NCBI GenBank assembly: GCA_022835595.1
Contig: BQUP01000007.1
Coordinates: 1,098,188 to 1,162,187, forward strand
Origin: Cystobasidium ongulense
Taxonomy: Eukaryota; Basidiomycota; Cystobasidiomycetes; Cystobasidiales; Cystobasidiaceae
DNA length: 64,000 bases
Direction of reading: 5' to 3'
Within the stretch, counting starts at the first letter, position 1. Each line of letters begins with the position of its first letter. Position numbers and translations under genes: made by a program. The notes below the pieces were generated by a model. The model worked only from the letters and a program-made list of their open reading frames with translations, had not been told where the DNA came from and made no database searches. Positions 16,258-43,525 of the stretch are shown piece by piece.

Positions 16258-17852
16258 CTACTCTTCATCGGTAGCCTCCTCTATCTCATCCTCCTCCTCT
16301 TCCTCTTCCATCGCTGCGCGGCCTTTTCTTGCCATTTCCTTTCTAAGCTTCGCCTCCTTGATGGCTCTCTTTTCATCCTTGATTCTGCGCTTGGCGCGCT
16401 CATCCCTAGTCTCCTTGCTCAATCTGCCAAAGTGATATTCGACGTTGCTGCCGTCCTTGTCTCCTTCATAGTTCAGCCCAAAGATGCGCTGAACACGCTT
16501 CGACTTTTGGCGCAAGGCCGGCTTCTTCATTCGCTCGATATCGTCAACGATCAACCCGTCAATCATCGTCGAGTATTCGATGCGACCTTCAGGGAAGCCG
16601 CAGAAAGCGTCAACACCGACAAAGTCGATATGATCCGACGCAAGCATCTGTATGAGCGGAAAATGACCGTCGAAGCGAGTTAGCAAAGGCCCGATGTCAG
16701 AATGTTTTTTGTACACTATCGCAACCAGATACTCACCTCGTGTTCGTCCCAGCGCTTGGCTTTCATCTTTTTCTTCCAGTCTGGATGGAGCGTCTCCAAA
16801 CGCTGCGCCTGATCTGGGGTGTAAAACCAGGCGATACGGAGCAGTCCAAGAGGCTCCTGATCTGTCCCCTGGTCTAGAGCACAGCAGTCGGTAATCCGAG
16901 CGCACCTAAAGAAGAGTCAGGAAAAAGAGTGAGCTTTGATTGAATGTCCAAGGCTCGTAAAGCTGCCTACTCACCAGTACTCGTCATCTGGGAGCTCTTC
17001 CGGTCCAATCTCGTCAGATCGGCCAGGAAGAGTTTGTGGGTCGGGTAGGAGGTAGATGATCTGGTCTCTTCGGAACTTGATCTTCTCCTCGCCGGGGAGG
17101 TGGTCGTAGTCGGCATCAATGTCCGTCTTGATGCTTGAGTGGTAGACGAGGTCCTTCATGATCTGCTCTGGCTTCATATTGATAATCTCGGCCTCCCAGG
17201 TGTAGCCTCGAGAAGAGCGGGAGCGTGTGGTGGGTACAGACTCGTCATCCGAGTCTTCGTTGGAGGTGGTGGTGCGCTTTCGTTTGTCGCCTGCTTTGGC
17301 TGTAGTGGCCTTCTTGGTGGCTGTGGACGCCTTCTTCTTCGAAGCAGCGGGTACAGCCTTTGACGATGGCTTGCTGCCAGTCTTGATAGCCTTTGAGCTG
17401 GACGAGGGTCCTTTGATGGACTGGCGGCCAGCAGCAGTCGACTTTTTGGCTGGAGAAGCCGTGGTCGACTTGGTTTGGCGAGAGGAAGCGGTCTTTCGCT
17501 TTTTTGCAGAAGCAGAGGTGAGCTCTTCAGCTACGTCGTCCGAGTCCGAGGGGTTGCTCTTGAGCTCGTCGTTCTGCTCTTGCTCGTCCTCCTCCGAGGT
17601 CTGCTCGCGCTTGCTTCGGCGGGCTGGGGCGGCATTCTCGTCTGCAGCGGGCCACCGTCAGCGGGCAGACACACACACACGACACAGCCAGCCAGCCAGC
17701 CAGCTCCTGCACCCACCATCGGACGAGTCTGCTGCCACCTGGACGCTCCTCGACGCAGGCTTGGACGCCCTCGACGCGGGCTTGCTGAGAGGCTTGCTGT
17801 TGCCGGCGGTCGACTTTCGTGCGCGGGTGGACGAGCTGCCTTTTGGGGGCAT
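16258..17852 (-). CDS. BAH-like domain protein, paralog 1 of 3
   Basis: Four exons: 17852-17717, 17641-16975, 16905-16737, 16647-16258, giving 453 residues. The first 190 residues are Lys/Ser/Thr/Ala-rich and acidic by turns, like a nuclear linker. From about residue 191 a conserved unit runs: YTWEAEI, FRRDQIIYLLPDP, DDEYWCARITDCCALDQ, LGLLRIAWFYTPDQAQ, then SDHIDFVG and VDDIERMKKP. The pattern, in particular LRxAWFYxPDxA followed by SDHxDFVG, suggests a bromo-adjacent homology fold, a chromatin reader module; this is by motif only. The tail is a charged Lys/Arg helix ending in a run of Glu. It is closest to the copy at 41913-43525 and related to the one at 23078-25194. The first intron contains CA and CCAG repeats. 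The start is the first ATG of the open frame. The molecular role is unknown. Confidence 0.82.
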
Positions 17853-18210
17853 GCTGCTGTTCAGAGGGCAGTGATGCTGCTAGTAATCACCTGTTAGTTA
17901 TCGATGTAATAATCAGACAAGAGCAGAGGCAAGCTGGATTATTAAGTTAACTGATGATTGTCGACTCGACTTGATGCAATAGTAAGTTAATGCTCGGAGG
18001 AGAATGATCGAACATCCGCCAGCAGCGAGTGGCCAGCAACACCATGGCTGGGATGGGAATGGTGGATGGCTGGGGATAAGGGTGTTGCAAGCATACGGAC
18101 ATGGACTAGAAGAGCACGCCAATCCACCCATCCAGTCAGATTCGCCATCCCGAGCATACTCTGTCTGCTAGAGGGCCCCGAAGGATTGGGCATAGGGTAC
18201 CCTCTACCGA
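17853..18210. other. intergenic region
   Basis: About 360 bp between the start of the BAH-like gene and the 3' end of HIS7. No gene is seen. Confidence 0.5.
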
Positions 18211-20404
18211 CTACCAATCCGACTTGCTCTGCACCAGATCCACCCGCGTAGCTAGCCCGCTCTCCCGCATCGCCTGCTTGACCGCCTCTATCGGCACCTC
18301 GTGTCGGTGGAAGATCCCCGCAGCCAGCGCAGCCTCGGTGTCCGTCTTGCTGAACACCTCGACAAAGTGTTCGGGACTGCCTGCTCCAGAGCTAGCAACC
18401 ACCGGAATACTGACGCTCTTCTTGACGAGATTGACCAACCTCAAGTCGAATCCACCTTTCTGCCCGTCCATGTCGACAGAGTTGAGCAGAATCTCTCCCG
18501 CTCCTAGCTCCTCCACCCCTTGGACAAGCTGGACAACATCCAGATCCCGCGTCTCGCGTCCTCCTTTCACTGTGCACTGATACCAGCAGTATCTCTCTCC
18601 ATTGGGTCCCAAGGACGACTTGATAGTCGTCGACTCTGAGGAGGACCCTGACCCGGCCAGCGAAGTAGAAGCCAGATCCACCACGCATGGTCGATGAGCT
18701 TCAGCGACATCTTCAGGCGAGCTGACATAGACCCGTTTAGGATCGACCGACACGACTACAGCTTGCGATCCATAGTTCCCGACTATGGATGTGATTGACG
18801 AAACACTCGCCGCCTTGGATCCATCACTCTGCCCTTGCTTTTTGCGCTCCAACAGCTCTTCCACCGCATATACTGCATCACTCCCTATCGAAACCTTGTC
18901 TGCACCAGCAGCAAAGTAGATACTTGCTACTTCAAGAGCGCTCCGCACTGTTCCATCTGGATCCGTCGTATCGCGAATGCCTCCTCCAACGGTCAGAGGC
19001 ACAAAGACCGTCTCTGCAGATTGAGCGACGACCGCAAGCATAGGCTGATCTGTAAGAGGACATGACCGGAAGGATGTAATGTTCAAGAAACAAATTTCGT
19101 CTGCACCTTCTGCGTAGTACCGTCTTGCAAGATCAACAGGTTTGCCCAGATTGCGAACAGCCGTTTTACTCTTTTGAGCTGATATGGACGCAGCTCCATT
19201 GGGTAGAGGAACAGCTAGGTCTGCGTTCGTGTCGTTCGCTGGCGTCTCTGGCAGATCCTTCTCTCTCACATCGTATTGATCGCCTTTGGTAACTACGAGA
19301 TCGCCATCATCGTTTGCTCGCACGTCCAAGCATGCAACGACGCGTTTCGTAAATCCATTCTTGGCAAGCGCATCTCGTCTTGATTCAATACTGACACTCT
19401 TCGTTTCAGAGACTGGAACGACACCAGTTTGCGATAGCCATGCCTTGAGTACGTTCAAACCTGCTTGTCCACTCTTTTCCGGGTGAAACTGAGTTGCAAA
19501 CACGTTTCCTTTTTGGACTGATGAGATGAATGTCTCGTCGCCGTATTGAGTGGCTGTAAGAGCCCAATCGGAGAGCTTCTCGTCGTACATTACGGCATAC
19601 GAGTGAACAAAGTAATAAGATGCGCCATTCTCGACGAAGCCATAGTGGACGGCTTCATCGGCCTCGCTTGATGTGCCGACTTTCAGGGGGATAGCTCCAT
19701 TCCAGCCTATTTGAGGGACAGCCTTCGTTTTCGAATTGAAGCGCTTGATAGAGGCTGGAACGACGCCTAGACCTTTAACATTGGGAGCCTCCTCGGATGA
19801 CTCGAAGAGGGCTTGCATGCCGATGCAGATGCCGAAGCTAAGCGTTCGAGAGTCAGCGGGTCGTTTGCATGACTTGTGACTAATATTCGGCTCACTATGG
19901 CTTGCCTGACGCAATATATCTCTTCAATGGCTCAGCGAAGCCTTTTGCTTCGAGGGATGCCATTGCCTGGCCAAACGCGCCTACGCCGGGAAAGACGAGT
20001 TGCTGAGGAGAAGAGTGTCAGTCAGGTGAAGATGTAGATTGAGAGTGAATGGGTCTTCCTACATCCGCCTTTTCAAAGTCCTCTGGGCTTTCAATCCATT
20101 TGAATTCGAATCCCTGGCTGGTGATGGCATTGGCGAGCGAGCGGACATTGCCGGCGCCGTACGAGACGAGGTAGCTGCAAGCATGGACAAGAGACGGTCA
20201 GCATGTGATTTGAGCCAGACGCGCCTTGCTGGAAGGATGCTCTGTGGAATGGAAGGATGTAGCCAGCTGCTTCTTGCCACCCGGATGGACCTGGTCAGAA
20301 GCGACCGAGACGGCGAGGCTGTTCAGATTGTCGGTCCATGGCATGCCAGCAGCTACAAAACTAGCCTGTGTCCTTCCCACCATCCACAGCGCATCCGCAT
20401 CCAT
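18211..20404 (-). CDS. HIS7: imidazole glycerol phosphate synthase, fused glutaminase-cyclase (HisHF)
   Basis: Well-supported exons on the minus strand: 20174-20063, 20002-19896, 19837-18211. The enzyme takes ammonia from glutamine and converts PRFAR to imidazole glycerol phosphate and AICAR in histidine synthesis. The glutaminase half has SYGAGNVRSL, VFPGVGAFGQAM, the nucleophile region FGICIGMQALF and the His/Glu region FATQFHPEKSGQ. The cyclase half has VVACLDVRANDDGDLVVTKG, DEICFLNIT, VGGGIRD, YCWYQCTVKGGRE and VASSGAGSPEHF, so both active sites look complete. Exon 2 begins in phase 2, so a tiny first exon is needed. A candidate is 20404-20388 (encoding MDADA plus two bases), which would give 620 residues with a 213-nt intron; this start is tentative. 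It is divergent from the PGDH gene. Confidence 0.93.
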
Positions 20405-20730
20405 CCAGCGACGAGTCATGGCACCCTCGACTAACAGCATGATTGATCTTCAAGCAAGGCCGTTTTCGCTGAATCCAACTCGGGCGCTTGCTGTGAGCAG
20501 TGTGTGCGCGGGTTGACGGTGCTTGCTGCTGGCTACTGACAATCTCCACTCCAATCCGTCTCTGTCCAAAAAGCAAAGGCGTGATCTGACCTGACTTGAA
20601 CTTTTTCAAAAAAGTAATCAACGGCCATTCGAGTCAACGACGAGCTTGACTTTGTTCCAATCTGATAGTATTGTCATTACTACAGCAGGAAGCAGGACTC
20701 TTCCCGAATAGACAGACAGAGCTGACTGCC
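20405..20730. promoter_or_regulatory. shared divergent promoter of HIS7 and PGDH with two TGACTC elements
   Basis: The region between two amino-acid-biosynthetic genes contains GAGTCA (TGACTC on the other strand) at 20413-20418 (just inside the tentative HIS7 leader) and 20631-20636. TGACTC is the core of the binding site of Gcn4/CPC1-type activators of general amino-acid control. That these sites work here is inference. Confidence 0.4.
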
Positions 20731-22487
20731 ATGTCCCAGCCCATCTCGCTGCCCAGCGTCGCCGGACTCTCGCTGAATCAACAGCCACAGCAGCAGTCGT
20801 CCTCCTCGACAGCAGCATCCAGATCCCCCCAAGCAGACCAGTTCTCGCCGCCTCGGCATCACTATGCCATCGTAGGCTCCCCCGTGGACACCAGCTCGCT
20901 TTCCAACGGCTTCGCTGCTGCCCATGCCCGCGGAGCAGCGCCAGCACACGACGCATTCAGCCCGTCGGAGCCCACATCTCTAGGCAAATCGCCTCGAGAG
21001 AGAGCTCGCTCCATGTCGGCCAACATGCAGACTCCCAAAGTCCTCACTCCGTTTGTCCCAAAAGCAGGACTGCCGCTGCCAGAGGCGCACGACGAGCAGG
21101 AGGAGGAAAAGGTCCACCCCAAGATTCTCCTGCTAGAGAACGTCAACGAGACCGCTGTGGCCATGTTCAAGGCTCAGGGATACCTCGTAGACACTGAGAA
21201 AGGTGCTCTGGGTGAAGAAGAACTCATTCAGCGACTCGTCTCTGGCGGCTACTCTGCCCTGGGAATTAGAAGCAAGACAAAAGTGACTGCAAAGGTCATT
21301 GAGAGTGTGAAGAATGTGGGTCTAATCCTATCTACATGCTCCGAAACAACACACTGACTTCAATGTACATGTCGCAGCTCATCGTCATCGGATGTTTCTG
21401 CATCGGCACAAACCAAGTCGACCTCCAAGCCGCATCACGTGCTGGATTGGCAGTATTCAACTCGCCATTCGCAAAGTGGGTTCTCAAACTACACAGGCTT
21501 GCATGCGATCACTATACTTACCCCCTCTCCCGCCCACTTCCCTCGTGCAGCTCCCGCTCGGTCGCAGAACTGGTCATTTCCGAAATGGTAGCCCTCTCCC
21601 GCCAGCTCTGTGACCGCTCTGCAGAACTGCACCAAGGCCTCTGGAACAAGGTCAGCAAAGGGTGCTGGGAAATCAGAGGCAAAGTTCTCGGAATCGTCGG
21701 ATATGGACATATTGGTGCTCAGCTCTCTGTTCTTGCCGAAGCAATGGGCGTGCAAGTTCGCTACTTTGATGTAGTACCTATCATGCCTCTCGGATCCGCA
21801 CAGCAAGTTGAAACACTCGACGAACTGCTAGCTCTCTCCGACTTCCTCTCACTCCACGTCCCCGAACTCCCAGAGACGATGAATCTGATTGGCGCAGAAG
21901 AGCTTGCCACGATGAAAAAGGGAAGCTACCTCATCAACAACGCTCGTGGCAAGGTAGTCGATATTCCTGCTGTTGTCAAGTCTTTGAAAGCAGGCCATCT
22001 TGCAGGCGCTGCAATCGATGTCTTCCCCAAAGAGCCAGCGGGTAATGGCAAGTTCTTCAACGACGACCTGAACTCTTTTACATCGGATCTAGCTTCGTGC
22101 CCGAATGTCATTCTCACACCACACATTGGAGGCAGCACAGAGGAAGCTCAGCGTGCCATTGGAGCTGAGGTAGGAAGTGCTCTTGTCCGGTATATCAACT
22201 TTGGTGCATCGATTGGTGCAGTCAACTTCCCCGAAGTCTCGCTTAAGCCTATCATTGGCGACAACATTGTTCGACTATGTCACATTCACACGAATCAACC
22301 GGGTGTGTTGAAGGCTGTCAATGCCGCTCTGGCTCCTTACAATGTTGAACGACAACTGTCCGACTCGAAGGGCGACATTGCCTATCTAATGGCGGATATC
22401 GCCGACGTCACGCAGGAGGGAATCAAGGACATCTACGACGCAATCTCGGTGCTTCCTGCAAATGTCGCGACGAGAATTCTCTATTAA
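20731..22487 (+). CDS. SER3/SER33: D-3-phosphoglycerate dehydrogenase
   Basis: Three exons: 20731-21315, 21378-21475, 21551-22487, giving 539 residues. It oxidises 3-phosphoglycerate with NAD+ in the first committed step of serine synthesis. After a 130-residue Ser/Gln/Pro-rich N-terminal extension come the substrate domain (HPKILLLENVNETA, YSALGIRSKTKVT), the NAD motif VGYGHIGAQL, the catalytic Arg region INNARGKVVD, the Glu region AAIDVFPKEPA and the His region LTPHIGGSTEEAQ. The C-terminal ACT domain (LCHIHTNQPGVLKAVN) suggests serine feedback. Introns split the active half, and phases fit. Length is close to yeast Ser3/Ser33 once the extension is allowed for. Confidence 0.95.
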
Positions 22488-23077
22488 GTCGTATCACAAT
22501 TGTACGATGAGTTTTGATTAGACTTCAGGTATCATCCTAATAGAAAAGAGCAGGCTTAACCCTGCCATTGTATCAAATATTAACAAACATCATAGACGTG
22601 CTGCACATCTGGTACAGCCGAGTAGCATATGTCGCAGATCTGGCTGTCTCGTTTCCTGCTTGCAGACCCAACCCAATTCAACATTAGAAATCAGTTCGAA
22701 ATAATCGGTGTACAATATAAATCTCTCAAGAGGGATTTGACTTCGTTGATCTTGGGTTTTGTACCTGCGAGCAACATGGTTATACCAAGCTTGCCCAGCC
22801 ATGAATACTTGCAGAGTAGAGTATTATATGAGACGCGTAGGCGTGTGGCAACTTGGGAAGATATAGTTGGCTATACTTTTGTGAGCAAACCAGCTGCAGG
22901 AGCATACCATGTGAGGGTGGAGTGATAGCATCCATTCACCTTGCTCAGACAACCCACTCGCCTCTGCATTCGCCGTGTATTCGCCCGTCCAATGCCTCTG
23001 CAGCTTGCCTTTGCTCCAACAACATCAACATTGCCATTTTATTCACCACATGCATTGAAGACGCGCTGAAGAGCAAG
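22488..23077. other. intergenic region
   Basis: About 590 bp between the PGDH stop and the next plus-strand start. An open frame at 22629-22925 has no recognisable features. Nothing else is seen. Confidence 0.5.
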
Positions 23078-25194
23078 ATGGCTCGCACAAAGCACACTGG
23101 TGGAGACACAGACACACGACGCCGGTCCGCGCACTCTGGCGTCTCGTCGTTGCGCGCTGAGCTGCCCTCGTCGTCGTCCAGGTCCGCACGCAAGCAGACG
23201 ACCTCGGCGCCTGCTTCTGGCTCCAGAGGTGAGACTGCTGGATGTACTTTGAGTGGTACACCGTGGCTGCTCCTGACGCACTCTCTTGCCATTCTTCACT
23301 GCTTCGTTATCCGCGTCTGACACTCTCGCCACAACCTTCCATTCTTCGTCTATATACCTATTCTGCACTGCTGGATTGACCCCCATGGACATGCACCTCA
23401 AGACTCAAGCAGCGACGATGATGGTCCGAGCACGAGCAATCCCGCTAAGCGAAAGCGTGCCTGTTCTCCGCAAGTAGGCCAACGCCACTCTACGCGGTCT
23501 CAAGACAGCAACAACCAGGATGATGAAGATGACGACAGCGACGACGAGAGCAACGCTCCTCAAGTGCAGCGTAGATCTGGCAAATCTCTCCCCAATCCTC
23601 CCATAGCTTCTGGATCCACTCGTCGCACATCCGGTAAAACCGTCCCAGTATCCTCCAGAGGCCGAAAGACTCTCAAAGCTGTCAGCGCAACTGCTGCTCG
23701 TCAACGCAAGCCTAAAGGTTTCACTGTGTCACACAAGACTGGAGTCACAAGCGAGGAGGATCAAGATGACGATCTATTCGACCTGGCTCCTGTCGGGGAC
23801 GACGACGATGATGACAGTGATGATGGAGAGCGCCAAGGAGATCCACCGAGGACAAGATCAGTTTCTATCGCTGGAGTAAGCGTGTATTTGTGAGCTTCCG
23901 GAGCTTGTATCACAGGCTGAACTATATTCCCACTTCATCAAGTACCAATGGAAAGCACAGGATATCCGCATTCGCCCAAATCTCGTAGTGAAATCGCTTG
24001 GCTACCATCGAGAGCGACGCTTCGAAATTCGTGTGAACAAGTCAAAAAATCAAAGGTCTGGCCGCATTTCCTCTGAGGATTCAGAAAACCATACCGATCC
24101 CGATGATCCAAATTACATCTACGAATATCAAAAGTTCAAGAGGGGACAGCTAGTGTATTTCTTGCCTGACCCGGAATATCTAGAGCACCCTCCGGAAGAA
24201 CTTGACTCCGTGACGGTAGACGACTTGAACACGGACGATTGGTGGCTTGGTCTTATTCTGGACTGCGCCGAGCTCAAATACAAAGATGGCACTACTGTTT
24301 GCGTGCTACGCGTTGCTGTGAGTCGACCTGACTGATTTGGCCTACTCTGTGACTTATTATGCTCATTCTCTGTGTCCATTCCTACTTGCTCAGTGGTGCT
24401 ACAGTCCTGATCAGGCCAAACACCTGTTTGCGAAGAATCCATCTTCCCGATGGGCCAAGCAGCTCGAGAAACACGACTTTTGGGACAATGAGGTGAGGCA
24501 CGTATCTTCCACAATGGGACGTAGATCGGTTCTAACTCTCCGGTACCAGATGATAGCCTCGGACCATGTGGACTTCGTTGGAGCGGATTCTACAGGGGGG
24601 CCATACAAGGGTGGTATGGACCAAAATGCGCAAGAAATGGTTCTGGAAGAGGAGTACAAGGAAAAGTACAACAAAGCACTCGCTCGTCACATGAAAAAGT
24701 ACCCTAAATTCGACAAAGACAGAAGGCCAGAGTTTGTTCCGCCTCGACGGAAGAGACTCCCCAAGAGCGAGAAGATTTGTATCAGGCTCTTCATTCGAGG
24801 ACTCGAGCAGTCGGACGTGGAGCGATGCAGTCTGTCCACCAAGAGACAAGGTCCAAAGCCACAGCGATGGATCGAAGAGGTACACGAGCCATTCCTAGAT
24901 CGCTTTGCCGAGAAGTGGGCCGTGCTGCTCTCTCATCAAGCGAGACGCAAACGTTTTGGCATTCCAACACAGGAAGTACGCCGCACAACGGCATCGCAAG
25001 ACGTAGAAACTGTGAAAAAACTGCAGCTCAAGGGTCTGCAATTGCAAACCTCTGGCCATGGCGGCGGAAAGGGCAAAGGTCGCGGAAAGACGATCTTACC
25101 AAGCAAAGCACAAACGTCAAGTACGGCTGGCAAAAGACAGGGCGCCAATGAAGAGCAGCACTCTGCAGCTGGCAAGAAAGCTCGCAAACATTGA
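23078..25194 (+). CDS. BAH-like domain protein, paralog 2 of 3
   Basis: Five exons: 23078-23228, 23403-23875, 23943-24317, 24394-24492, 24550-25194, giving 580 residues. The N-terminal 208 residues are low complexity with Asp/Ser-rich stretches and basic blocks; the protein starts MARTKHTGG, resembling the start of a histone H3 tail, probably by chance. The BAH-like unit begins at residue 209: YQWKAQDI, FKRGQLVYFLPDPEYL, TDDWWLGLILDCAEL, VLRVAWCYSPDQA, then ASDHVDFVG near residue 370. It is the most diverged of the three copies and has a longer C-terminal half with a second basic region (LFIRGLEQSDVERCS, WIEEVHEPFLDRFAEKWAVLL) and a Gly/Lys-rich tail. Introns at Y-x-W, A|W and E|xxxSDH match those of paralog 3. 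The role is unknown; nuclear location is inferred from composition. Confidence 0.82.
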
Positions 25195-25483
25195 GAGCTC
25201 TTTAGCTGCGTCACCTCCCTGCAGAACAGCTAGCCTACTTCGCGATTGTTCGTCTGCGCAGCTTCGCCAATCGGGCCTCTTGCCTCCCGAGTTCGCAAGG
25301 AGCAACTTTCTTTTGCCCTTCTGTATGAAGACTGGTGATTGGAAGCAGGTGGAGGTTTCGAATAAATCTCTCTCGGTTTCAACTTGTATCGATCGATCTG
25401 CTCCTGGACAAGAGTTTCAATCTAGTTCTACATCAACATTTACTTTCTTGTAGCATATTTTACAATCTGATGCTGCCAAAATA

Positions 25484-26334: not shown

Positions 26335-26645
26335 GAGGGATGTTCTTACAAGTCCTGCCGTAGGAGAAGTGCATGCGGCTAACAGATCTGCGACGGTGTC
26401 AACATTAGTAGTGATACTAGTTGAGCTGCAGTATATTGCCACCTGCAAGCTTCCCACCTTCTCTCTACGCTGCTGCCAGAAGCAATGCAGCACAAGATCA
26501 TAGAGATGTGCTACGTACCTCACTGTAACTCCGCCTGCGTGCAGCTTCGAAACCACCGGCTCGTCATATCCACGTGTTGCATCACCGGCCATTCCAAGCG
26601 GGCGGTCGAGGACAGCCTTTGCTTCTGCACGACATCAAGGAAGAG

Positions 26646-29600
26646 ATGAATCTCAACATGCGTGCTGCCCAAGAGGCTCTTGCCCATCCCAGCGAGCAAG
26701 TGCTCGAGACCATGCGCGGTGCAAGCAGCGAGGCGCAGGCAGCGGTCGCATCCATTGCTCCGAGCAGCTCTGCGCTGGCGAGCCTCGCTGCGAACAGCAA
26801 CGGCGCAAGTGCAGGTGAATCAGCGCAGAATGGTGGTGTGGATGGCGTGGATGGTGGTGGTGGTGGTGCGGGACAAGTCGGCGAGACCATGTCCCATCAA
26901 GACACGTCAAGACTCCAGGTGGTGGATGAGGTGAATCCATCGGAATGGCTCAGCACGGCAATGACTGACTGGACAGCCCATGTGCGCGTATAGGAACAAC
27001 ACTTTACGTGAGTAGCTCCAACACGCGACCTCAAGAGGGCCTGCCTGACGACTGGCTTTCTCGACTGCATCATGCTTTCCGCCACGAACAGCTCAAAGCT
27101 TCCCGAATACATGCAACGCTGGCATCTTTACGACGCTGGCTTCGACTACAACGTCGTCTCTGTGCTTGGTGGGTAGCCGTCTGCCATCGAACGGTCCTGC
27201 TTGACCATCGTGCTAATGCTATCTATCCTGCCCTCAACAGGCTCTCAGTCTACGGGAAAGAGTAGGTCAGACTGCTGGCTGGTGTCGTCCTGTCTGCTCT
27301 CGGATGCATTTCTGAATGCATTGCTTTCTTCTTGAAACTGCAGGCACCCTCCTCAACAGGCTGTACGGCACCACATTCGATGTGATGAGCGAGTCCGAAC
27401 GGAGACAGACCACTAAAGGTGTGTCGCATTCTATATCACCGATGTATGCCCCGAGCAGTCGCATTAATGCTGTCGTCTATTTCCCAGGCATATGGATGTG
27501 TAGAGCTCAAGGCACGAACACCCTGGTCATGGACGTTGAAGGTACAGATGGACGCGAAAGAGGAGAGGACCAGGACTTCGAACGCAAGAGTGCCCTCTTT
27601 TCACTTGCGACGGCCGAGGTACTCCTCGTCAACATGTGGGAACATCAAGTTGGCCTATACCAGGGAGGTAGGCAGCCTCTACCACTTTTTCATAATGCAC
27701 ACTAGCATCCTGACCATCACCCTCCGCATCAGCCAATATGGGCCTTCTGCGAACAGTACTCGAAGTAAACTTGGGCTTGTTCCAAGTTGCCAAATCCAAA
27801 ACACCCAATGCCCACAAGGACAAAGCACTCTTGCTCTTCGTCATTCGTGATCACGTTGGCGCAACCCCGCTGGCGAATCTCGCCGCAACTCTAAAGCAGG
27901 ATCTAAACCGGATCTGGGATGGTCTCAGCAAGGTACTTCTGCTCTGCCGACCTTCATCCACCTGTCTTTCACTGACCACCTTTGCCCTCCTTTCTTTTGG
28001 CAGCCTGAAGGTTTGGAGAAGTCGCAAATTACCGACTTCTTCGACATGGATTTCACGACGCTGCCTCACAAGCTGCTACAGCCAGACAACTTTGAAAAGG
28101 AAGTGCTGAACCTGCGAAAGCGCTTTATGGATCGCCATGCGGCGGATTATGTTTTCCGACCCGTCTACCACAAGCGGATACCTGCAGACGGTTTTGCTCC
28201 GTACATGTCGAATATTTGGGTAATTCAGAGTCTACACGTCTTCCTGATTGCTCCAGGCTGAGCGGCGTCTTCTGCAGCAACAAGTATTGCAAAACAAGGA
28301 TCTCGATCTCCCAACACAGCAAGAGCTGCTCGCCCAATTCCGATGTGACGAGATTGCAGCCGCCGCTTTCGCCGTGTTCAACGAAGCAGTCGCCCTTTTC
28401 CGCAGGCCTATCGATGGTGGCAAGATCGTAGAGGCGCTGGGCTCCTTAATGACCGAGCACCGCACAACTGCCTTGGCTGCCTTTGATATAAACGCTTCCC
28501 GCTATCACTCAGGAGTGTATCAACGGAAACGAGCCGAGTTGATGGCTCAAATGAATGCAACTTTGTCGACACTGTTCGTTTCGCAGTTAACAAACTTGCA
28601 AAAGACCATAGTAAAGCGGTTCCGGCAGAACATGCTAGACCGTTTGAAGGGCGAGGGCTACGACTTTGGTAGCCTTGTTCAAGAGGAGCAGAAGAAGGCA
28701 GAACAGGATTTCGTCCAGCAAGCTTCAAGTACGCATACTGCTGCCTTGTTAGTGTAAGCCGTGTGACTTATCGTTTTCCTCATTCTTGCAGGTATCAAGC
28801 TAGAGGACACAGACTGGTCATATGACGAAGCGCAACACCAGCTTAGACAGGATTTATCAGCCATCGCAGACCTCTTACGAGCAGAAGAGACCAAGAAGAT
28901 GGTCATCATTATCGAGGTGAGCTACTTCGCTTCGCTTGATAATGGGGTCAGCTGCTAACCTAGAGTTCTCTCTGCAGCGTAATCTCAAAAAGCAGCTTGG
29001 CCCTAGTGTTGAGTATGCTCTCAGCAAGCCATCACCCGACATGTGGGACAAAGTCCTCAAGTCTTTCAGGGAGGCTCTCGACAAGGCAGAGACAACCTAC
29101 CTACGGAAGGCTTCGAGTAAGGACTCTCATCTAATTATGCAGATGCTTGGGACTAACAAGAATCCTCGACTGACAGGTTTCAACTGCACCAACGAAGAAA
29201 GCGAAGAAGCCCTCGTTTTACTCCGAAAGCGTGCGTGGCTGACTTTGAAGAGTCTCGTCGACGAGCAAACTTCGGACACTGTTATGCTCATCAAGTTGAA
29301 GCTAGCATTCGAAGACAAGTTCCGATATCAGGATGGCGTACCCCGGGTCTGGCGACCGGAAGATGACATCGACGGCCTCTTCAAGTCCGCCCGGGAAGAA
29401 ACACTCGCTTTGATACCCCTATTTGCCAAAATTAAGCCGCAAGATGCGACCTTGGCCTTCGAATTACCCGACTCGCAGTCTACATCGCTGGAAGACCTGG
29501 AGTTCGACTTCCAGGAGACCTTGGTCGTTCTGAGCGACGCCAAGCAGATGGAGTTAGCAGAACGATTCAGGCGAGAGGCCGATGCGTATTTCCTGGAAGC

Positions 29601-30093
29601 CAAACGCAGCATGGTGTCGTCTATCAGCCAAATTCCAGTCTGGATGTACGGCGTCATAGCCGTACTCGGATGGAACGAGTTTGTGACGGTCTTGCGCAAC
29701 CCGCTCTATTTCACCCTTCTCTTGATCCTTGGAGCGGCCGCCTTTGTGACAGTACAACTCAACATGGTAAGAACTTGGCTGTTGGTATTGCTTGCTTGCC
29801 TGCGCTGACGTTTTGCTGCAGGTTGGGCCAGTCACAACGCTGGCGCGCGGCATCAGTAATGAGGTCTACAGAGTGGCTAATGACACGATGGTGAGCATCA
29901 TCTGGTCTTGAAAGCACGCCTCGTTCCCGATATTGAGCCTGTTCCGACTTAGCGCGAGCATTTCCAACAACCATTACAAAGGCAACTCGAAACGCCCCAT
30001 CGCGCCTCCTCGGGTCCAGAAACGTCCAATGGAAGGACAGAAAAAGCCCATTCGACAGAAGGAGACAGCATCGAAATGAAGAAAACGCAGTAG
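26646..30093 (+). CDS. SEY1: Sey1/RHD3-type dynamin-like GTPase for ER membrane fusion
   Basis: Fourteen exons (26646-26930, 26994-27007, 27092-27168, 27241-27261, 27344-27418, 27488-27667, 27733-27932, 28004-28219, 28257-28728, 28792-28916, 28978-29116, 29177-29766, 29822-29890, 29953-30093) join to 867 residues with phase kept throughout. The protein hydrolyses GTP to tether and fuse ER tubules. The G1 motif GSQSTGKST is made by three exons, the middle one only 21 nt; TTKGIW and [12 protein letters not shown] (G3) follow. A long helical stalk leads to two hydrophobic segments near the end ([20 protein letters not shown] and [20 protein letters not shown]) and a charged cytosolic tail. The Ala/Gly-rich first 80 residues are not conserved; translation could instead start at the ATG at 26890. 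Confidence 0.93.
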
Positions 30094-30395
30094 CGCTAAT
30101 TCACCAATTGTATCAATACGTTAATATTACATTACGATGCCAGATGCATATATGATCATCAATCAATCTCAGCATCGATTACCTGGGGTTGAACATTCGA
30201 CCAATTTCACATATTTTGGTGATGGTACGGAAGACGGCAAAGCTGGCTAATGCAAGTCGATATTACAGGTTTTCGGAGTGTTCGACGCAGCTTTTACATT
30301 GGACCGGCATATCTATATCGGCAGCCAGGTCGATTTTGTTACCTTATAAGCACGAAAGCCTAGCGCGGTATCACGCTACGCCATTCGTCTTTTGA
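30094..30395. other. convergent intergenic region
   Basis: About 300 bp between the 3' ends of SEY1 and the SDR gene. AT-rich; nothing recognised. Confidence 0.5.
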
Positions 30396-30429
30396 TTATT
30401 GCTTTGGACGGTAGCAAGCGTGTCGGCCT

Positions 30430-31684
30430 TCAGGGCGGGTCTGTCGGCTTTGCCGGCTGTGGTCTACGAAACGAGCGAGAGGTTCAGCCAAATCCTTGCG
30501 ACGCCGGTTTGGTTGAAAATGTGGAGAGCCTACTCCTCCATCTACTGGCATGATGAGACCCGTGATCCATTTTGCTTCTCTGCTGCAAAGAAACAGGATC
30601 GCATTTCCAACATCCCATGCATCTCCTTCTTGTTTCATGAGATTTTGATTGATACGCGCCTGGCGCAACTCGTCGGTCATACCTCGGCCTCGGACCTGTT
30701 TAGAACAACTCGTATGTGAATCCTTCCTTTCTTCCTGCATATCCTCAAGCTTGTCCACACTTACCATCGGAGTATATACCATTCCTGGACACACGCAATT
30801 CACGCGGATGTTTTCCACGCCATGCTGAGCAGCCATGGCGCGAGTCATCTGGATAATGGCACCTTTGGAAGTCGGATACAGCAAGGAAGGGTTACCGCCA
30901 AGAACTATTCACAAGTGTGTTAGTTTGATCAGCGTAAGCTTGCAAAGATGCGCCGCCACTTACGACCGCTGACAGAGCTCATGTTTACAATAGCACCTCG
31001 CCCTACTTTTCGCATTTCGGGTATGGCATGCCGCGCCATCAAGACCATCGACGTTACCTTGCAATCAAAAATATGTTAGGGTAGATTTCGCGGTGCTTTA
31101 TGGACAAGACCGTTGAGATTGTCACCGGACCTACATTGATGCGAAAATCTCGCTCCCATTCGTCCATATTGATAGTTGTGGCATTGCCCATTGCTCCGCC
31201 CACACCGACTGTGCGAGTATTGAGAATTCAGATATGCCATGTATCAGTCAGAAGCTCGAAGGTTGCCAGCTAGCTGCTTTCGCCATCTTACCGATGTTGA
31301 CCAAGATGTGTACAGCTCCAAAAAGGGCAACCGTCCTTTGGACCGCAGCTTTACAAGACTCTTCACTCGTCACGTCTGCTTGGATGACTTCGGATATGTT
31401 GCCTTCTTCATCAATCATACGTTTTGTCTCGTTTGCCCATTCTGTATTGTAATCCACGAGGGCGACCTTTGCACCTTGACGAGCGAGCAGGATGGCTGTA
31501 GCGCGTCCATTACCGATTTCGCCTGTGGAGGAGGATGAAGATGGGCTAGATACTTCGTGACCGCCGCTTTGTTCAGAGTGATGCGTGACTACCTACCTTG
31601 CATCCGCGAGCCAGCGCCTGTTACGATAGCTACATCGCCGCCGAAGGTGAACGCGGCAGGACGGCCGGACTGTGCTGTGGACAT
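30430..31684 (-). CDS. short-chain dehydrogenase/reductase (classical SDR)
   Basis: Seven exons on the minus strand: 31684-31597, 31522-31292, 31208-31135, 31057-30964, 30904-30765, 30695-30534, 30456-30430, giving 271 residues. It should be an NAD(P)-dependent oxidoreductase; the substrate is unknown. The nucleotide-binding start VAIVTGAGSRMQGEIG, the region ILVNIGVGG in place of NNAG, the catalytic Ser region NMSSVSG and the YxxxK motif YPTSKGA are present, and it ends in the usual MPVDGG block. If the last intron (30533-30457) is not removed, the frame runs to 30396 and adds about 40 unlike residues; the spliced form fits the family length. An Asp (ALVDYN) follows the second strand, which often goes with NAD preference. 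It is divergent from the Zn2Cys6 gene. Confidence 0.87.
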
Positions 31685-35307: not shown

Positions 35308-35549
35308 AGGGAGTACTGTAGTCGTTTTTGAATGCGTAAAGTGGCGCGAATAGTAGCAAATAGCAGCGAATAGCAGGGTTTGTCCATGTCGTTTGAATTG
35401 GTCTGCAGCAGGTCTTTGCAAGAAGAATAGAAGACTGCATATCTTCTATCCATGATCGAGGTACAAATCAGATAAGAGTGATGATGATCTACAGCATAGG
35501 CTGCCTTTTGACCACCAGCAACATTGCCGCATCAAGGATTGCGGCTGTC

Positions 35550-36795
35550 ATGGCTGACACGGTCCCAGATCCACACCAGGCAGCAGCTGCAGCCTCGCTG
35601 CGCCAGTCGCGCCGGTCAACTGCAGCTGGGCCAGCCGCGGCGACAGCATCCACAGCAGCAGCAACACCTCTGCGCCGCATCGCCAGAGGCTCGCTTGTCG
35701 CACTCAGCGCCTCGCGAACACGCGAATCGGACCTCTATGGCCCAACGCTGGGCCACCTCGCGCCAGCTTTTGCCGAACTCGCAGACGCGGTGGAAGACCT
35801 CGCAGTCAACATGGAAGCCCTCGACGCCATCAGCCAGTCGCTCGACGAGTTCAACGAGTCTTTTGCCGGTCTCATCGTTGGCCTGCGCGTCAATGCGTAT
35901 ACCACGGACTTCCTCCAGGTGTGCATGGGGTTTCGGTTGGCTGCTTTCTCAGCACATGGGCTGATTGCACGTGTCTACGTTTGCATATGCGTCTGATATC
36001 TTTACGTGTTCGCACCCTCTACGGCTACAGGCTCCTACTAGGCGGAACTTTGAACACGAAAAAGAACGTCAAGCTCGTCTCGAGGCAGAGCAGACAGAGG
36101 CAGCTCTCCAAGCCACGCGCTTAGCAGAGGAAGAAGAAAAGGCTGCGAGACAGCAAGAAGAAGTGGAGGAACAAGCAAGTGCTGCAAATGGAAACGACAC
36201 GTTCGTCACGCAGACCGGCAACAACGATAGATCTCTGGCGAATAGAGGAGGACTCGCTCGCGGCCGAGCTCGAGGAAAAGGTGCTGGAACAAGTACGGGC
36301 AGGTCTGCTGGAGCCGGCCAGAAGCAAAAGGACCTCCTTGTCAAGTTCGCTCAACCTATCATCTCGTCAATGCCCATTGATTTCAGAGAAAAGCAGGTAT
36401 GCCAGCCTAGACCCAGCTTTGCACGTGCGCTTAAGCTCACGAACCCTGTCTACTCAGCCGCAGCGGGGAGACGCAGAGACTGTTATTGGCGCCCTGAAAA
36501 CACACCCAGATGGACTCCACAGTCAGCTCCCACCCCTTATATCTTGTCGAGTCTTGCAACTAATACACACGCACCTATGGCAGTGCAAGAGCTTGTCAAG
36601 CTGTACCCGTCAATCCCTCAACACCGCATCAACGACTGCCTTCTCGCTCTCGTACGCGCAAAACACGCTATCAAGGTCAATTCAAAGGTAAGACTTGAAA
36701 TATAAGATGCGTCCCACGCGTTAGCTGACTTGCGGTTTCTGTTGCAGGGTCTATTGTACCGTCTTGATCCGCTAAAGTACCCAGCAAATACATGA
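35550..36795 (+). CDS. DAM1: DASH complex subunit Dam1 with extra C-terminal domain
   Basis: Five exons: 35550-35918, 36031-36396, 36458-36521, 36584-36687, 36748-36795, giving 316 residues. Dam1 links kinetochores to spindle microtubules as part of the DASH ring. The conserved core is at about residues 65-125: YGPTLGHLAPAFAELADAVE, LDEFNESFAGLIVGLRVNAY. A charged coiled-coil region (EKERQARLEAEQTEAALQ) and a Gly/Arg-rich stretch follow. The last 80 or so residues (DAETVIGALKTHPDGLH, ELVKLYPSIPQHRINDCLLA, AIKVNSKGLLYRLDP) resemble a small winged-helix fold and are not part of the Dam1 proteins I know. The ATG at 35478 is in frame and would add 24 hydrophobic residues; 35550 is preferred. Confidence 0.88.
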
Positions 36796-37233
36796 CGAGG
36801 ACCTCAATATTGCTTGCGATAGCATTACTCGCAGTAGCCGCTACTGCATGCTGTCTGGTTTCTCGCGCTAGGCTCCGTCGCCACGTACAACTGTGAACTC
36901 CTCCATGGTCAGATTGCACAACCACACCAATCTCAACGAGGGGTATTGATCCTTGTGGACGCCCTCGCTCACAACACTTCACAAGACCGCTGGCATGAAT
37001 CACGATGCCACACCTGCGCACACCTGCCATCAAGCGGTTGCGGGATATAGGTCTGTTCCGTAAGTCAGGCTGAAGAGGCCAGACTTCTGGGTCAGCAGAA
37101 GCAAACACAATCGGGTCCGAGCCTTCACAAAGAATTAGCAATGCAAATAAGGCAAGAAAACGTCGGCGATTTGGAGAAAGCAGCTTGTATTAGACTGTCG
37201 GCGAATTGTCACTGCTGTTGTCCTTACAGAACA
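36796..37233. other. convergent intergenic region
   Basis: About 440 bp between DAM1 and the hydrolase gene, both ending here. A minus-strand open frame (36677-37141) has no protein-like features. Nothing else is seen. Confidence 0.5.
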
Positions 37234-38379
37234 CTATCGAGACAGCCAAAAGTCAAACCACGATACTATGCCTTGAAGGCTCTGCTCCTTGACCCAACCT
37301 GAAAATAGGCGTTATCAGCCTCGCTATATTTACGCATACAGACTTGCACAAGTCACTCACGCTCATATGGAACATCTGGATTGCTTCGCAAGGCGAAGCC
37401 ATGCGACACGCCAGAGAAGAGTTGTAGGTGGTATGACTGGCTGCCTTCTTCGAGTATATCCTGCGCCCGACGTCTAGAGTCTTTAGGGAAGGTGTGATCT
37501 GTCTCTGAGCACGACATCAAGAGCGGATCTGATTGGTAAATCAGCAACAGATATGGTCGGAGCAAAGCAGCATGCCGTGCTCACTGGAGACTGCCTGGAT
37601 ATGCTCTTCTTTCAGAAAGGCGGGGTGTGCAAAGGCACCGGCTGAGACCAGATTTCCAGCCAGCTGGTTGCAGACGTAGGGGGCGCCAAAGCAGTACCTG
37701 CACTCAGACAGAGCAAAGCAGGGATGAGCGTTTGTCTGGTTTTGAGTGAAGACCCGGTAGTGTTGGCTCACCCGACTGCCGCGTAACGCGTATTACTCGT
37801 GCCAAATTGTTGCTGAACCTCTAGAACCCATCTAGGAACGGCTTGATCCGCAAATGCAATGTGCTTGCGCTTCCAAGCTTCATAGTCGAAATTAGGATCG
37901 GTAGTGGTGTCATTTCTGTCCTTTCTATGCTTCCAGACTGGGTCCTTTTTGGCCAAGGTCCCATCAGCTGTCGGAGGCTAGGTACGGTTCAACAGCAATT
38001 GCAAGCTAGCTTACTCCTCTGAAATAATCCAGTCCTAGAACGAGGTAGCCTATGGAACAGTAACTCAACTGGGCGGAACTATGGCACCTGCTTGGTTCTA
38101 CATACCTGCATCTGCGAATGCGTCCATGACAAGCAAGCCGTTTGTGAACATTCCCCAGACGTCGGCAAAGTAAAGGATGATATGCCCATTCGCTTTATGT
38201 GCTGGAGGATGCACTGCATATGTTTCCACTTCTGCGATGCTAATGAAACTCCCGCGAGGTTTGCCTTGATGGATAGTGCCTTCCAAGCAACAAGCACCAG
38301 ACGGGGCAGCTAGGTACTTTGCAGTCTTCGCGCCATTGGAGGGCTGGGAGCTATGCGAGGCACTCGACACTACAGCCAT
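37234..38379 (-). CDS. dienelactone-hydrolase-like alpha/beta hydrolase
   Basis: Six exons on the minus strand: 38379-38106, 38049-38015, 37977-37772, 37697-37585, 37528-37361, 37298-37234, giving 286 residues, a usual length. Dienelactone hydrolases open cyclic dienelactones in aromatic breakdown, but fungal members act on varied esters, so the substrate is open. The nucleophile is a Cys in GYCFGAPY. The Asp region SETDHTFP and the His region VSHGFALRS complete the triad; ILYFADVWGMFTN and GLDYFRG are family blocks. No signal peptide is evident; it is probably cytosolic. It lies 590 bp from the divergent MFS carrier, which may supply its substrate. Confidence 0.88.
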
Positions 38380-38969
38380 AGCGACTGTTCTTCAATTCTC
38401 TTTGGTGCTCATCTACGAATGGCAGCATCCAGCTTCTTGCCGGGTATCTGCACACCGCTGAAGTCGCTGGCTCTTGCCACCATTCTCGACACACGCACTC
38501 GGATTCGGCACCGATCAACCCGACGGCTTCAGCCCGAGAAGCCGACGGCAACTCCATCTTCTGCTGGCTTTGCTCGCATCAGCTTCAGAGCAGGCAGCAA
38601 CTTATTAACCGGCTGGCTGGCTGCGACCTTGGATTGCACAAGTATCCTATCGGCATCTACTTCGGAGCCAGCAAGTCGACAGCTAAAGCCGTGCTCGTCC
38701 AAATGGAGCCGATATCTATGTGGGGCCCTCGGTTTGCTTTAGACTGAAAGCTAGCACTCTTGCCTTCTCATACCCTCATCCCTTGGACACATTCTGTGAA
38801 CATCATACCTCTCTGGGCAGACCACGTCTACGAGACCCAAAGTGGCGATTCTCTTCCACCTGTTTTTTGCCTAGCGATTCCGTACCGTTTCAAGAGTGAG
38901 TCGTCATTGCGTGAACTACCCGTGTCATATTATTTTCTCAACAATATCTCTATAGTCTAACTTTCTACG
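38380..38969. promoter_or_regulatory. divergent promoter region between hydrolase and MFS carrier
   Basis: A 590-bp region between two starts. The open frames here are short and unlike proteins; no operator is recognised. Confidence 0.35.
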
Positions 38970-41501
38970 ATGAACGAGAATCTCAAGCATGTCGAGTCGC
39001 AAACCAGTGACCTCGAGAAGTCTGATGTCGAGCGTCACGCGCGCGGCCTCAGTGTCGTCCCACCCGGCCTAGACAACATCGAGGAGGTACGTCTTTAGGA
39101 ATCACGACTTTCAGTGCTGCATTAGCTGACTTGTGCATCAGCATGATGAAGCAGTAGGCTACAAGGAGTACAGGGAGGGTATCGAGGTAAGTGGAAGGAG
39201 CTACGCATACAATGCGCTCTTTGCTGACTTATCGTCGTATAGGTTGAACTATCAGACGCCGATGTAAGCCCTTTGAAAAGCTTTGCTTTGTGGTCTCAAT
39301 TCTGACTAACAGCATTGACCGCAATCGTTCAGAATCGACGAATCCGCTGGAAGATCGACTTGATGATTTTGCCCATGTTCTGGCTCATGCAAGCGCTTCA
39401 GTTCATGGATAAGACTGCCTTGAACGTGAGTAAAGCAGTACCCACGTTTAATCTGTCAGATGAGCTTACAGCCGCATATAGTACGCCAATATCTTAGGGT
39501 ACCAATCAACCCTCAACTTGAAAGGCACTCAATTTAATTATCTCTCCGCCAGTAAGCGCAAAGAGGGGTAGACGCCTCCAGATCCTGGCTAACCTTTCAT
39601 CTCATCCCATAGTGGTCTATGCTGGATACTTCTTTGGCCAATATCCATGTGCACAACTCATTGGCCGTTTCCCCGCCCAAAAGGTATTGGGGGTCACTTG
39701 CTGTAAGGCTTCTCGAGCCTTTCGGTGTCAAAAGCGCTTACAATACTGATCAATATCGAAAATCGGCAGTTATTTGGGGATTCTTTGTCTTAATCCTGAC
39801 CCAAGCGAAGACCTACGAGTCCGCAATGGCCGTCCGGTTCTTCCTGGGAGTCTTTGAAGCTTCAGTGACACCGTAAGTATTGGGCATAGCGCTACGCAGA
39901 AGAAGGTCAGTAATAACTCATACCATTTCAGTGGCCTGACCCTCATGACTGGTTTCTGGTACACTCGGCGAGAGATACCATTGCGACAATGCATTTGGTA
40001 CAGCTCTTTGGGCGGAGGCGGTATAGTGCGTCGAAGTGACTAGTTATCCCTGCCGGGTTGCTGATATTGATTCTCCTCGTCCCTTGGTAGATTGGCTCTT
40101 ACATCACTAGTAAGTTTAATGATCAGGAGACTTGCTGGTCGTACACTCACATTCGGCTCTGTGAACAGTGGCCATTTCGAAACTCCCTGAGAGTTCCAAC
40201 CCACACTTGCAGAAGTGGCAAATCCTGTTCTATATCGTAAGCAGCGTCGAGGCAACCTAATACGTACCGTAATACTGACTTTAGTCTTGTTTAACCTGTA
40301 GCTGGGTGGTTGGACAATGCTATTCGCTGTTCTCGTCTTCTTTGTTCTGCCCGATGCGCCGTCCAACGCCTGGTTCCTAAATAAGAAGGACCGCATTCTC
40401 GCAGTGAAACGCGTCGCACGCAATCAAACAGGCATCAAGAATAAGCATCTTGACAAAGGCCAGATTCTGGCAGCTTGTGAGTGATATGATTCCAATAGAC
40501 GTATTTCGGTACGATCCCCGTGACAAAGCAACTGCTGATATCGCCCCTCCAGTCAAAGACATCAAAGTTCTGCTGCTGTTCACATCGGTTTTTGCGGCAG
40601 CTATCCCCAATGGTAAATGTCGCATACAAGTTGCTTTGCTTCCCGCTAACCATTTCCCTCACTCTGAACAGGCGTCGTCAATAGCTTTTCTACCATTATT
40701 ATTAAGGATTTAGGCTTTTCGACTACCAAGACGACTGAGCTCAAGAGTGTCGGAGACGCAATCCAAGTCGTCGCTTTGGTCATCGGCGGAATCATTACCT
40801 TCAACATCCCCAACTGTGAGTAGGATTCCTTACAGTATACCGTAGGCTTTCAGAATGGGCTGTAAGCTAACGGAGTCACGTCCATACAGCACGCCTTCTG
40901 ACCGCAACAGCGGCCAACATACTGTGCACAGTTGCCGCAGGATGCACAGCGTACCTGCCTCGCGCCAATACATGGGGCAGGCTGGTATCGTTCTGGCTGG
41001 TAAAGTGAGTCGGCTTCGTTGTCATAGATGGATTGGATGACTTACCTTCTCTGCTAAACCTAGCGCTCAATCTGTTGGCTTTACTGTGTCTCTGGTATCC
41101 ATTTCGAGTAATATGGCGGGATACACTCATCGCTCGGTAGCATCGGCTGTAGTCTTTACAGCATACTGCTGGGGCAATTTTGTGCGTATCTCTGGTTTTT
41201 TTCTCCAAAAATTCGGCACCAAAGCTAAAGCGTCTGTTTGTACCCGGTTTACCAGGCTGGTCCCTTCGTAGTCAAGCCCAGTGAAGCTCCCAACTACAAA
41301 GGTGCTACTATTGGTCTGCTAGTGGGCTATGCCATCAAGCTCGTATGTCACCTCTTGCTGTTAGCGTACATGTTCACAGCGAACAAACGGCGTGATCGCA
41401 AGTACGGCAAGCCAACGCCGGAAAGTCGCGCGCGCGCAGATGAAGCCGGTATGCAGGATAAGACCGAGTACGAGAACAAAGACTTCCGGTATGTTTTGTA
41501 A
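38970..41501 (+). CDS. MFS transporter of the allantoate/anion permease (Dal5-like) family
   Basis: Sixteen exons join to 525 residues: 38970-39086, 39142-39186, 39243-39263, 39333-39425, 39482-39551, 39613-39702, 39770-39872, 39932-40025, 40091-40109, 40169-40236, 40302-40476, 40553-40612, 40672-40815, 40890-41004, 41064-41181, 41256-41501. Two are tiny (21 and 19 nt). The protein should carry small organic anions such as ureido acids or carboxylates with protons at the plasma membrane. Family blocks include WKIDLMILPMFWLMQALQF, DKTALNYANILG, YFFGQYPCAQLIGRFP, FLGVFEASVTPGLTLMTGFWY, and in the second half AAAIPNGVVNSFSTIIIKDL and SNMAGYTHRSVASAVVF, with twelve membrane helices expected. The tail is charged and cytosolic. 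The substrate cannot be read from sequence. Confidence 0.92.
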
Positions 41502-41912
41502 TCAGTCAGCAATTGCTGGATTTGTTGGAAGCTGGGTGTACTGTAGGTGGTCGCCCCCCATTATTATCGTATTTTCAATGAATGGAAGATTCCAGACAGG
41601 GAATCACATCTGCGCTTGCGGAGGCTTGCTATATTGACACGAGTGAGGTGTTAGATGGTAGCAGCACGCCAGTCTGGCAGAGTAAAGCATATGAACATCT
41701 TCTTCAGGCTTTATTAAGCGGTGGTTTTCCTGGATTCGAGTTTCTAGGCTGTCCATCGTTTGGTAACTAACATTCCGTGTAAAACAATAACAGCAACAAT
41801 TTCAAAGTATTAGACATTGTTTCAGAGAACAGTTGGACTCGGACATAACGGGCTGGGTATAAGTATTGATGCGAGGAGTGTGAGTGTAAGAGTTCAATAT
41901 CACTACTCCAAC
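41502..41912. other. convergent intergenic region
   Basis: About 410 bp between two 3' ends. No gene is seen. Confidence 0.5.
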
Positions 41913-43525
41913 TTAGACATAGTTGTACGGATCTTCGGATTTCTCAGCATCATCATCATCATCGGGCTGAATTTGCTCAAGCCTTCGCCGGGCTGGCCGC
42001 TCGTTCTGCCCTCGCTTCACACGTCTCGCTATGCCAGGATTGCGCTCGAGGTCGGCTTCTCGCGCTGCGGCGCGCTGAGCAGCGTCCTTGAGGGTGAAGC
42101 CTGTCATTCGAACTATTCTATTCGACTTTTTTCGACGGTGGGGTGGCTTCATGCGCTCGACATCGTCGACTTCGAGGCCCGATATGTTGAGGAATGTGTA
42201 TATGCCGTCGGCAAAGCCAGCAAAACATTCGATTCCGACAAAGTCGACGTGGTCGGACTTTATGCGCTGCGAAGGAAGGCAGAACAATCAGTTGCAAGGC
42301 GCGGGCAAACTTGTATATAGACAGGAATATACCTCGGGCTCGCCAAATCGGTATTTTCGGATCTTCTTCTTCCAGTCAGAGTGGAGATCGTCTAGCTTAT
42401 ACGCGTGATCTGGGCTATAATACCACTGGCACCAGAGCAGAATGAGCAAGGCAGGGAAAAACAGGCCGCCTGTAAGGCGCTTACCGCTACTCGAAGCAAT
42501 CCCAAAGTTCCTGCGCGCTGACTCTCCTGGTCTTGATCTAGTGCACAACAATCCAGTATCTCTCCTACCCACCACTCGTCGTCTGCGAGCTCGTTGATCT
42601 CGACTTCGTGGGACACTGGCGGCAGCCACTGCGGGTCTGGCAGGATCCAAATCTTGTCTCCTCGCCTATAGCGGACTCTCTCGTTCTTACCTTCGCGCTC
42701 AATGGTTGTGGTGATTGAGTTGTGGTAGGAAATGCGATGCCGGATGTCTTCGGGTTTGATCTCGAGTACTTCAACGTCCCAGGTATACTGTTAGCAGGCA
42801 GACTTAGCTTTTCAATCGGACCACGCCGAAAGCAAACGCATACTCACCCCTCTAGGACTCCTCGAGCGTACGTTGAGCGAGCTAGACTGGTCCTCCTCGG
42901 TGTCGGTCTCCTCACGCCGCCTTGCAGCTGTCTCGTCGTCCTCTATCGAATCTGACGAGGCTGTGATGGCCGCATCTGCCTTGCGCTTGTAGGAAACCAG
43001 CTTGCCGCTTTTTCCTATAGGAGCAGCAGGATAGCCTTTGCCTTTGCCTTTACCCAGGCCTGGTCTGTTTGCCCCGGGGGGGATGTTGGCGATATTGTCC
43101 TTGCCGCCTCTCCTGCTCTGGACCAGCGGCGGGAGGCTCGCGTCGGTGGATGTGGTGACGGACGAAGCAGTGTTGGCGTGTTGTAGCTGTCTGGCGTTGT
43201 TGCCGCTGCTGTTTGCTAACGAGGGCGAGGCCGTCGAGCTGCTCTTGACGGCCATGCTCCTGCTGCTCTGGGCGGGCGAGGTATTCTCGTCCTCGGACTG
43301 TTGGGCGATAGCGCGCACGACATGCTCTTCGTCGCGGTACATGCGTCCGCCAGAGCTCTTCCTTGCGAGCTTCGTCTCTTGCTGCTGCGTCTGCTGCTGT
43401 CCAGCCTGCTGCTGCTGATATCCTGCAGAGGCCGACGCACCCGACTTGCGTGCGCCGGCTGATGCGCTCTTGGCCGGCATGCTCGTCCGCACGACGCCAG
43501 AGCTGCTCCCAAAGAGCGTGCTCAT
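41913..43525 (-). CDS. BAH-like domain protein, paralog 3 of 3
   Basis: Four exons on the minus strand: 43525-42848, 42787-42485, 42425-42333, 42266-41913, each a whole number of codons, giving 475 residues. A 226-residue low-complexity N-terminal half (Gln-rich, Ser/Ala-rich, basic patches such as RRGGKD and KGKGKG) precedes the conserved unit: YTWDVEVLEI, YRRGDKIWILPDPQWL, DDEWWVGEILDCCALDQ, LGLLRVAWYYSPDHA, then SDHVDFVG at about residue 361 and VDDVERMKPPHRRKKS. The tail is Arg-rich, then Asp-rich. It shares DCCALDQ, LGLLRxAW, DWKKK and the VDDxERMK block with paralog 1, and intron positions with paralog 2. Probably a nuclear chromatin protein; the role is unknown. Confidence 0.82.

Follow-up and report, generated by a model that had tools for sequence, protein, structure and literature searches.

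Three clustered paralogs of Cystobasidium ongulense with a predicted BAH fold and a putative pocket for methylated histone H3

The window studied here, a 64-kb stretch that forms the end of a 1.16-Mb contig of the basidiomycete Cystobasidium ongulense (genome 19.77 Mb), holds three genes that raise a question: what are they, and when did they arise? A first-pass annotation, made from the sequence alone, described them as diverged members of one BAH-like family within 27 kb and suspected a local, lineage-restricted expansion of chromatin-reader-like proteins. The reading favoured here, with moderate confidence, is that they are ancient paralogs of one divergent BAH subfamily whose core binds a methylated lysine of histone H3.

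One gene family with a shared core

The three genes (copies 1, 2 and 3; Table 1) are homologous and represent one family. All motifs listed in the first-pass annotation are present, its gene coordinates are exact, and start and stop codons were confirmed for each copy. The ten introns are all of the GT-AG type and 57-174 bp long, and each spliced gene yields one open product. The conserved core starts with G-Y-x-W and is about 190 residues long. In BLASTP comparisons the cores of copies 1 and 3 are 47% identical over 196 columns (E 2.5e-63), those of copies 1 and 2 32% (E 2e-28) and those of copies 2 and 3 32% (E 1e-25); by these alignments the similarity is far beyond chance. A phase-0 intron before (M/I)xSDH or RIKSDH is present in all three copies, not only in copies 2 and 3 as first supposed. 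The intron between A and W is indeed common to copies 2 and 3, which also share an intron directly before YxW; a phase-1 intron near residues 45-50, at the N-terminus, is common to copies 1 and 2.

The N-terminal halves are of low complexity, as first described: they are rich in Ser, Ala, Lys or Asp, with 0 to 2% aromatic residues, and each is long and probably disordered. A fairly probable layout for each protein is this low-complexity half, then a single BAH fold, and a tail that is either charged or specific to the paralog. The exon with the C-terminal extension of copy 2 is conserved in the database proteins P0007-P0011 (46-63% identity); the extension, for which Pfam gave no match at E<=1, may hold a further domain.

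Predicted fold and putative methyl-lysine pocket

The BAH-like character of the family is strongly supported by the predicted structure of one member, P0013, to which copy 3 is the closest of the three copies (58%). Most of the modelled domain can be superposed on BAH domains. Its best Foldseek match is EBS and its best VIA match the SHL-H3K27me3 complex; ASH1L, ORC1b and PBRM1 rank close behind, and MTA1 and Rsc2 are also among the fold matches. The profile check with Pfam BAH, suggested in the first-pass annotation, did not recognise the family: PF01426 matched none of the three copies at E<=1 and none of 16 members at E<=5, nor did any of them reach its curated cut-off, which is a curation threshold and not a biological criterion. 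Weak Pfam lines among the 16 members include BRWD_AD (0.061), SH3_2 (0.37), DUF3104 (0.047) and others. No identification was obtained from NCBIfam (copy 1 core only) or from the PDB by HMMER profile search, where the single match, a penicillin-binding protein (E 1.1), was judged to be chance. In the three full proteins Pfam gave no match at E<=1 to a PHD finger or a bromodomain.

Aligned by profile with BAH segments of the RSC/PB1 type only, the family gave a single-comparison E of 3.5e-4, with 0 of 100 shuffles as high. With segments of SHL, EBS and BAHCC1 included, which were added after the likeness of SDH to SHL had been spotted, E was 6.1e-6 (0 of 100 shuffles). W104, Y106 and S138-D139-H140-x-D142 (copy 1 core numbers) are paired with W63, Y65 and S-D-H88-Y-D90 of SHL. 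The cage part W-x-Y is present in 17 of 18 rows for Trp and in 18 of 18 for Tyr. SDHxD occurs in all three copies, its His in 23 of 24 rows and its Asp in 23 of 25; contact of these residues with S28 and P30 of H3 would hold by analogy. The invariant Trp of DD-x-W (17 of 17 rows) stands at a strand start of the model and was paired with Y41 of SHL by eye only; the first cage residue would then be Trp instead of Tyr. An insert lies between W-x-Y and SDH.

According to the respective reports, alanine at Y41, W63, Y65, H88 or D90 abolishes binding in SHL (PMC6013494), the corresponding mutants of AIPP3 bind less or not at all, with cage, His and Asp proposed as a criterion (PMC7718874), and TNRC18 is a reader of H3K9me3 (PMC13068663). 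Since the BAH of TNRC18 also has His-x-Asp (SSHVD), the pocket suggests a reader of H3 methyl-lysine without fixing K9 or K27. Judged by sequence, the three copies keep most of the pocket by which relatives bind methylated histone H3. A reader function of the family is likely; a nuclear role, histone binding and the ligand are what we infer from there. The core would bind a methylated lysine of the H3 tail in an aromatic cage of Trp, Trp and Tyr, the His-x-Asp of SDHxDF would grip the neighbouring residues of H3 in the way seen for SHL and AIPP3, and the disordered arms would recruit partners or DNA. As no Polycomb writer turned up in the genome, where a Clr4-like SET place (by eye) and two chromodomain places exist, H3K9me is no less likely than H3K27me to be the ligand.

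The plant BAH-PHD readers SHL and EBS and the BAH of AIPP3 (H3K27me3) are similar in fold and W-x-Y, with the S-D-H-x-D of SHL and EBS in the same place. The copies differ from them in the lack of a detected PHD finger, in the Trp (assigned by eye) as first cage residue, in the insert before SDH and in a sequence too distant for Pfam BAH. The BAH domains of BAHCC1 (H3K27me3) and TNRC18 share the fold, W-x-Y and His-x-Asp, but the HMMER search of the PDB detected no sequence similarity to them. The EPR-1 and BP1 BAH-PHD proteins, compared here by their description in reviews, are likewise fungal, with a BAH domain and proposed histone reading, whereas no PHD finger was found in the copies. The SHL BAH segment had no match in the genome, a search that says little because the RSC-like BAH of this genome was missed as well.

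The fold could instead serve as a protein-protein or nucleosome-surface scaffold of the MTA1, Rsc2 or Orc1/Sir3 type, the Trp and Tyr being structural and no methyl-lysine being read. This is the strongest of the alternatives, if still an unlikely one. MTA1 and Rsc2, whose BAH domains are not known to read methyl-lysine, are among the fold matches; the segments of RSC1, RSC2 and PB1 share W-x-Y-x-P with the family, and the insert could cover the usual groove. Yet RSC1, RSC2, the first BAH of PB1 and the RSC-like BAH of this genome lack the His-x-Asp that the family keeps at the SDHxD site, and EBS and SHL, the best structural matches, are readers with His-x-Asp, even with ASH1L, ORC1b and PBRM1 so close. 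Two places in the genome lie above the Pfam BAH cut-off, neither within the window: C1:1228296-1228553, a clear BAH of the RSC1/RSC2/polybromo type, and C5:1671239-1671508, of MTA type by eye. The RSC1/RSC2/polybromo type shares the BAH fold and W-x-Y-x-P with the three copies, in which no bromodomain was detected.

It is improbable that the proteins, like those of the EPR-1/BP1/SHL kind, are genuine readers of H3K27me2/3 in a genome whose Polycomb repressive complex 2 (PRC2) was missed. The cage and His-x-Asp agree with most of the published criterion, and the best VIA match is a complex with H3K27me3; the His-x-Asp of the H3K9me3 reader TNRC18, however, makes the motif no proof of K27. Genome searches for VEFS-box and preSET_CXC, each without a positive control and with genes split by introns, gave no match, and none of the 14 SET places looks EZH2-like by eye. 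By eye, from their hallmarks, we take the SET places to be Set1-like (two that belong to one gene), Set2-like, Clr4-like and AWS-type, the remainder presumably SMYD- or Set5/6-like, or unplaced. According to PMC3814326, Ustilago maydis is without known PRC genes, which bears on the present genome only if the two are closely related.

Age of the duplications and genomic setting

At least 24 relatives were retrieved from about 5.8 billion proteins, a lower bound in that the last search scored the best 7994 candidates by shared words. The best BLASTP partners are P0001 and P0003 for copy 1, P0005-P0011 for copy 2, and P0002, P0004 and P0012-P0024 for copy 3; these counts are no measure of abundance because the last search was led by a copy-3-like sequence. 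An unrooted tree of 14 rows supports a group with copy 1 (96/96), one with copy 3 (98/97) and one with copy 2 (100/100). In a second unrooted tree (21 of 27 rows; limited to columns that copy 1 or copy 3 fills, rows of <70 letters excluded) the values are 98/96 for copy 1 and 100/99 for copy 2, and the copy-3-like rows are set apart with 98/97; P0021 and P0015 are on long branches and their placement is unsure. Apparent retained-intron residues in P0003, P0004, P0005 and P0014 were kept unedited. In its last exon copy 2 shows 97% identity to P0006, and the two may come from the same species.

Since the copies fall in separate supported clades with database sequences, the duplications predate the split of those organisms. 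The first-pass annotation would have given up a local expansion had each copy grouped with separate orthologs outside the lineage; for the rows in the trees the copies do group with different relatives, so that this holds in part. A recent expansion within the strain or species, for which the spacing of three copies over 27 kb and the lack of further ones in the genome searches would speak, is highly improbable: the copies are only 47% and 32% identical and show no similarity at the DNA level, and the trees with their separate clades contradict it. A tandem or recent segmental duplication was rejected, as self-BLASTN of the window gave only a minisatellite. A minisatellite with a 27-bp unit in about five copies lies at 15944-16090 and ends some 170 bp downstream of the copy 1 stop codon.

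It is possible that the family is lineage-restricted. A description of it was not found in titles and the starts of abstracts among the matches listed on BAH in Ustilago, smuts and basidiomycetes, a coverage outside which most subscription journals fall. A prokaryotic or viral home was rejected: viral contigs searched with P0013 gave three pattern matches, none related, and genome contigs searched with one copy-3 exon gave a 28-residue match of 43% to Acidithiobacillus, judged to be chance.

In 2,000,000 draws that placed three genes at random in a genome of equal length, the share with all three inside 27.3 kb was 8e-6; such clustering being improbable by chance, local duplication is the natural origin. 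A genome search with each core, exon by exon with the best candidates scored, found only the three loci and one weak match to copy 2 at C2:836884 (E 2.8), which has three stops and was rejected as chance. A very diverged fourth member could escape, as even the exon-wise matches of copy 2 to copy 1 reach no better than E 0.004-5. The copies lie on both strands and are separated by unrelated genes, as first described. The window has 58 open reading frames (ORFs) of >=150 amino acids, and a Pfam scan of 30 of them gave matches for 12; further ORFs at 33-37 kb, between copies 2 and 3, had no match. ORFs at 53018-54813 (-) and 58222-60213 (+) match the adaptin N-terminal region and are possibly different adaptor-complex subunits side by side. 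To the eye, exons at 61500-62400 resemble the core of an annexin; they lie about 1.6 kb before the end of the contig, where no telomere repeats were seen by eye.

Table 1. Features of the three genes and the genes between them (window positions)
Feature	Position	Strand	Details	Basis
Copy 1 gene	ATG 17852, stop 16258	-	exons 17852-17717, 17641-16975, 16905-16737, 16647-16258; 453 amino acids	splice model, translation
Copy 1 introns		-	75, 69, 89 bp; GT-AG	
Copy 1 BAH-like core	16474-17207	-	residues 191-382; putative pocket W268 (by eye), W294, Y296, H330, D332	
Copy 2 gene	ATG 23078, stop 25194	+	exons 23078-23228, 23403-23875, 23943-24317, 24394-24492, 24550-25194; 580 amino acids	splice model
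Copy 2 introns		+	174, 67, 76, 57 bp; GT-AG	
Copy 2 BAH-like core	23873-24612	+	residues 208-387; putative pocket W309 (by eye), W334, Y336, H372, D374	
Copy 2-specific C-terminal extension	24613-25194	+	RGLEQSDVERC resembles GLxVDDxERM of copies 1 and 3; then block conserved in P0006-P0011	alignment
Copy 3 gene	ATG 43525, stop 41913	-	exons 43525-42848, 42787-42485, 42425-42333, 42266-41913; 475 amino acids	splice model
Copy 3 introns		-	60, 59, 66 bp; GT-AG	
Copy 3 BAH-like core	42096-42850	-	residues 226-415; putative pocket W299 (by eye), W328, Y330, H364, D366	
ORF with GATase and His_biosynth domains (histidine biosynthesis)	18211-19914	-	between copies 1 and 2	Pfam
D-2-hydroxyacid dehydrogenase	20671-22487	+	between copies 1 and 2	Pfam
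Sey1 three-helix bundle	28248-29808	+	between copies 2 and 3	Pfam
Short-chain dehydrogenase	30396-30884	-	between copies 2 and 3	Pfam

Possible implications for chromatin reading in the lineage

The family has retained a pocket like that of Polycomb readers, in a genome that yielded no Polycomb writer. A tentative proposal is that, in a fungal lineage which lost Polycomb, a cryptic family of BAH readers with a K27-type pocket survived, was triplicated and turned to a new target, such as H3K9me or some other methylated lysine, each paralog reading a different mark or state. As Pfam BAH misses the family, chromatin readers in such fungi have probably been undercounted. Should the pocket be functional, the three proteins would become candidates for heterochromatin reading in a fungus for which no Polycomb reader is expected, and the five pocket residues allow a direct test by mutation. 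Paralogs of such age, still within 27 kb yet as little as 32% identical, would form a natural set for following how a single reader fold switches from one mark to another.
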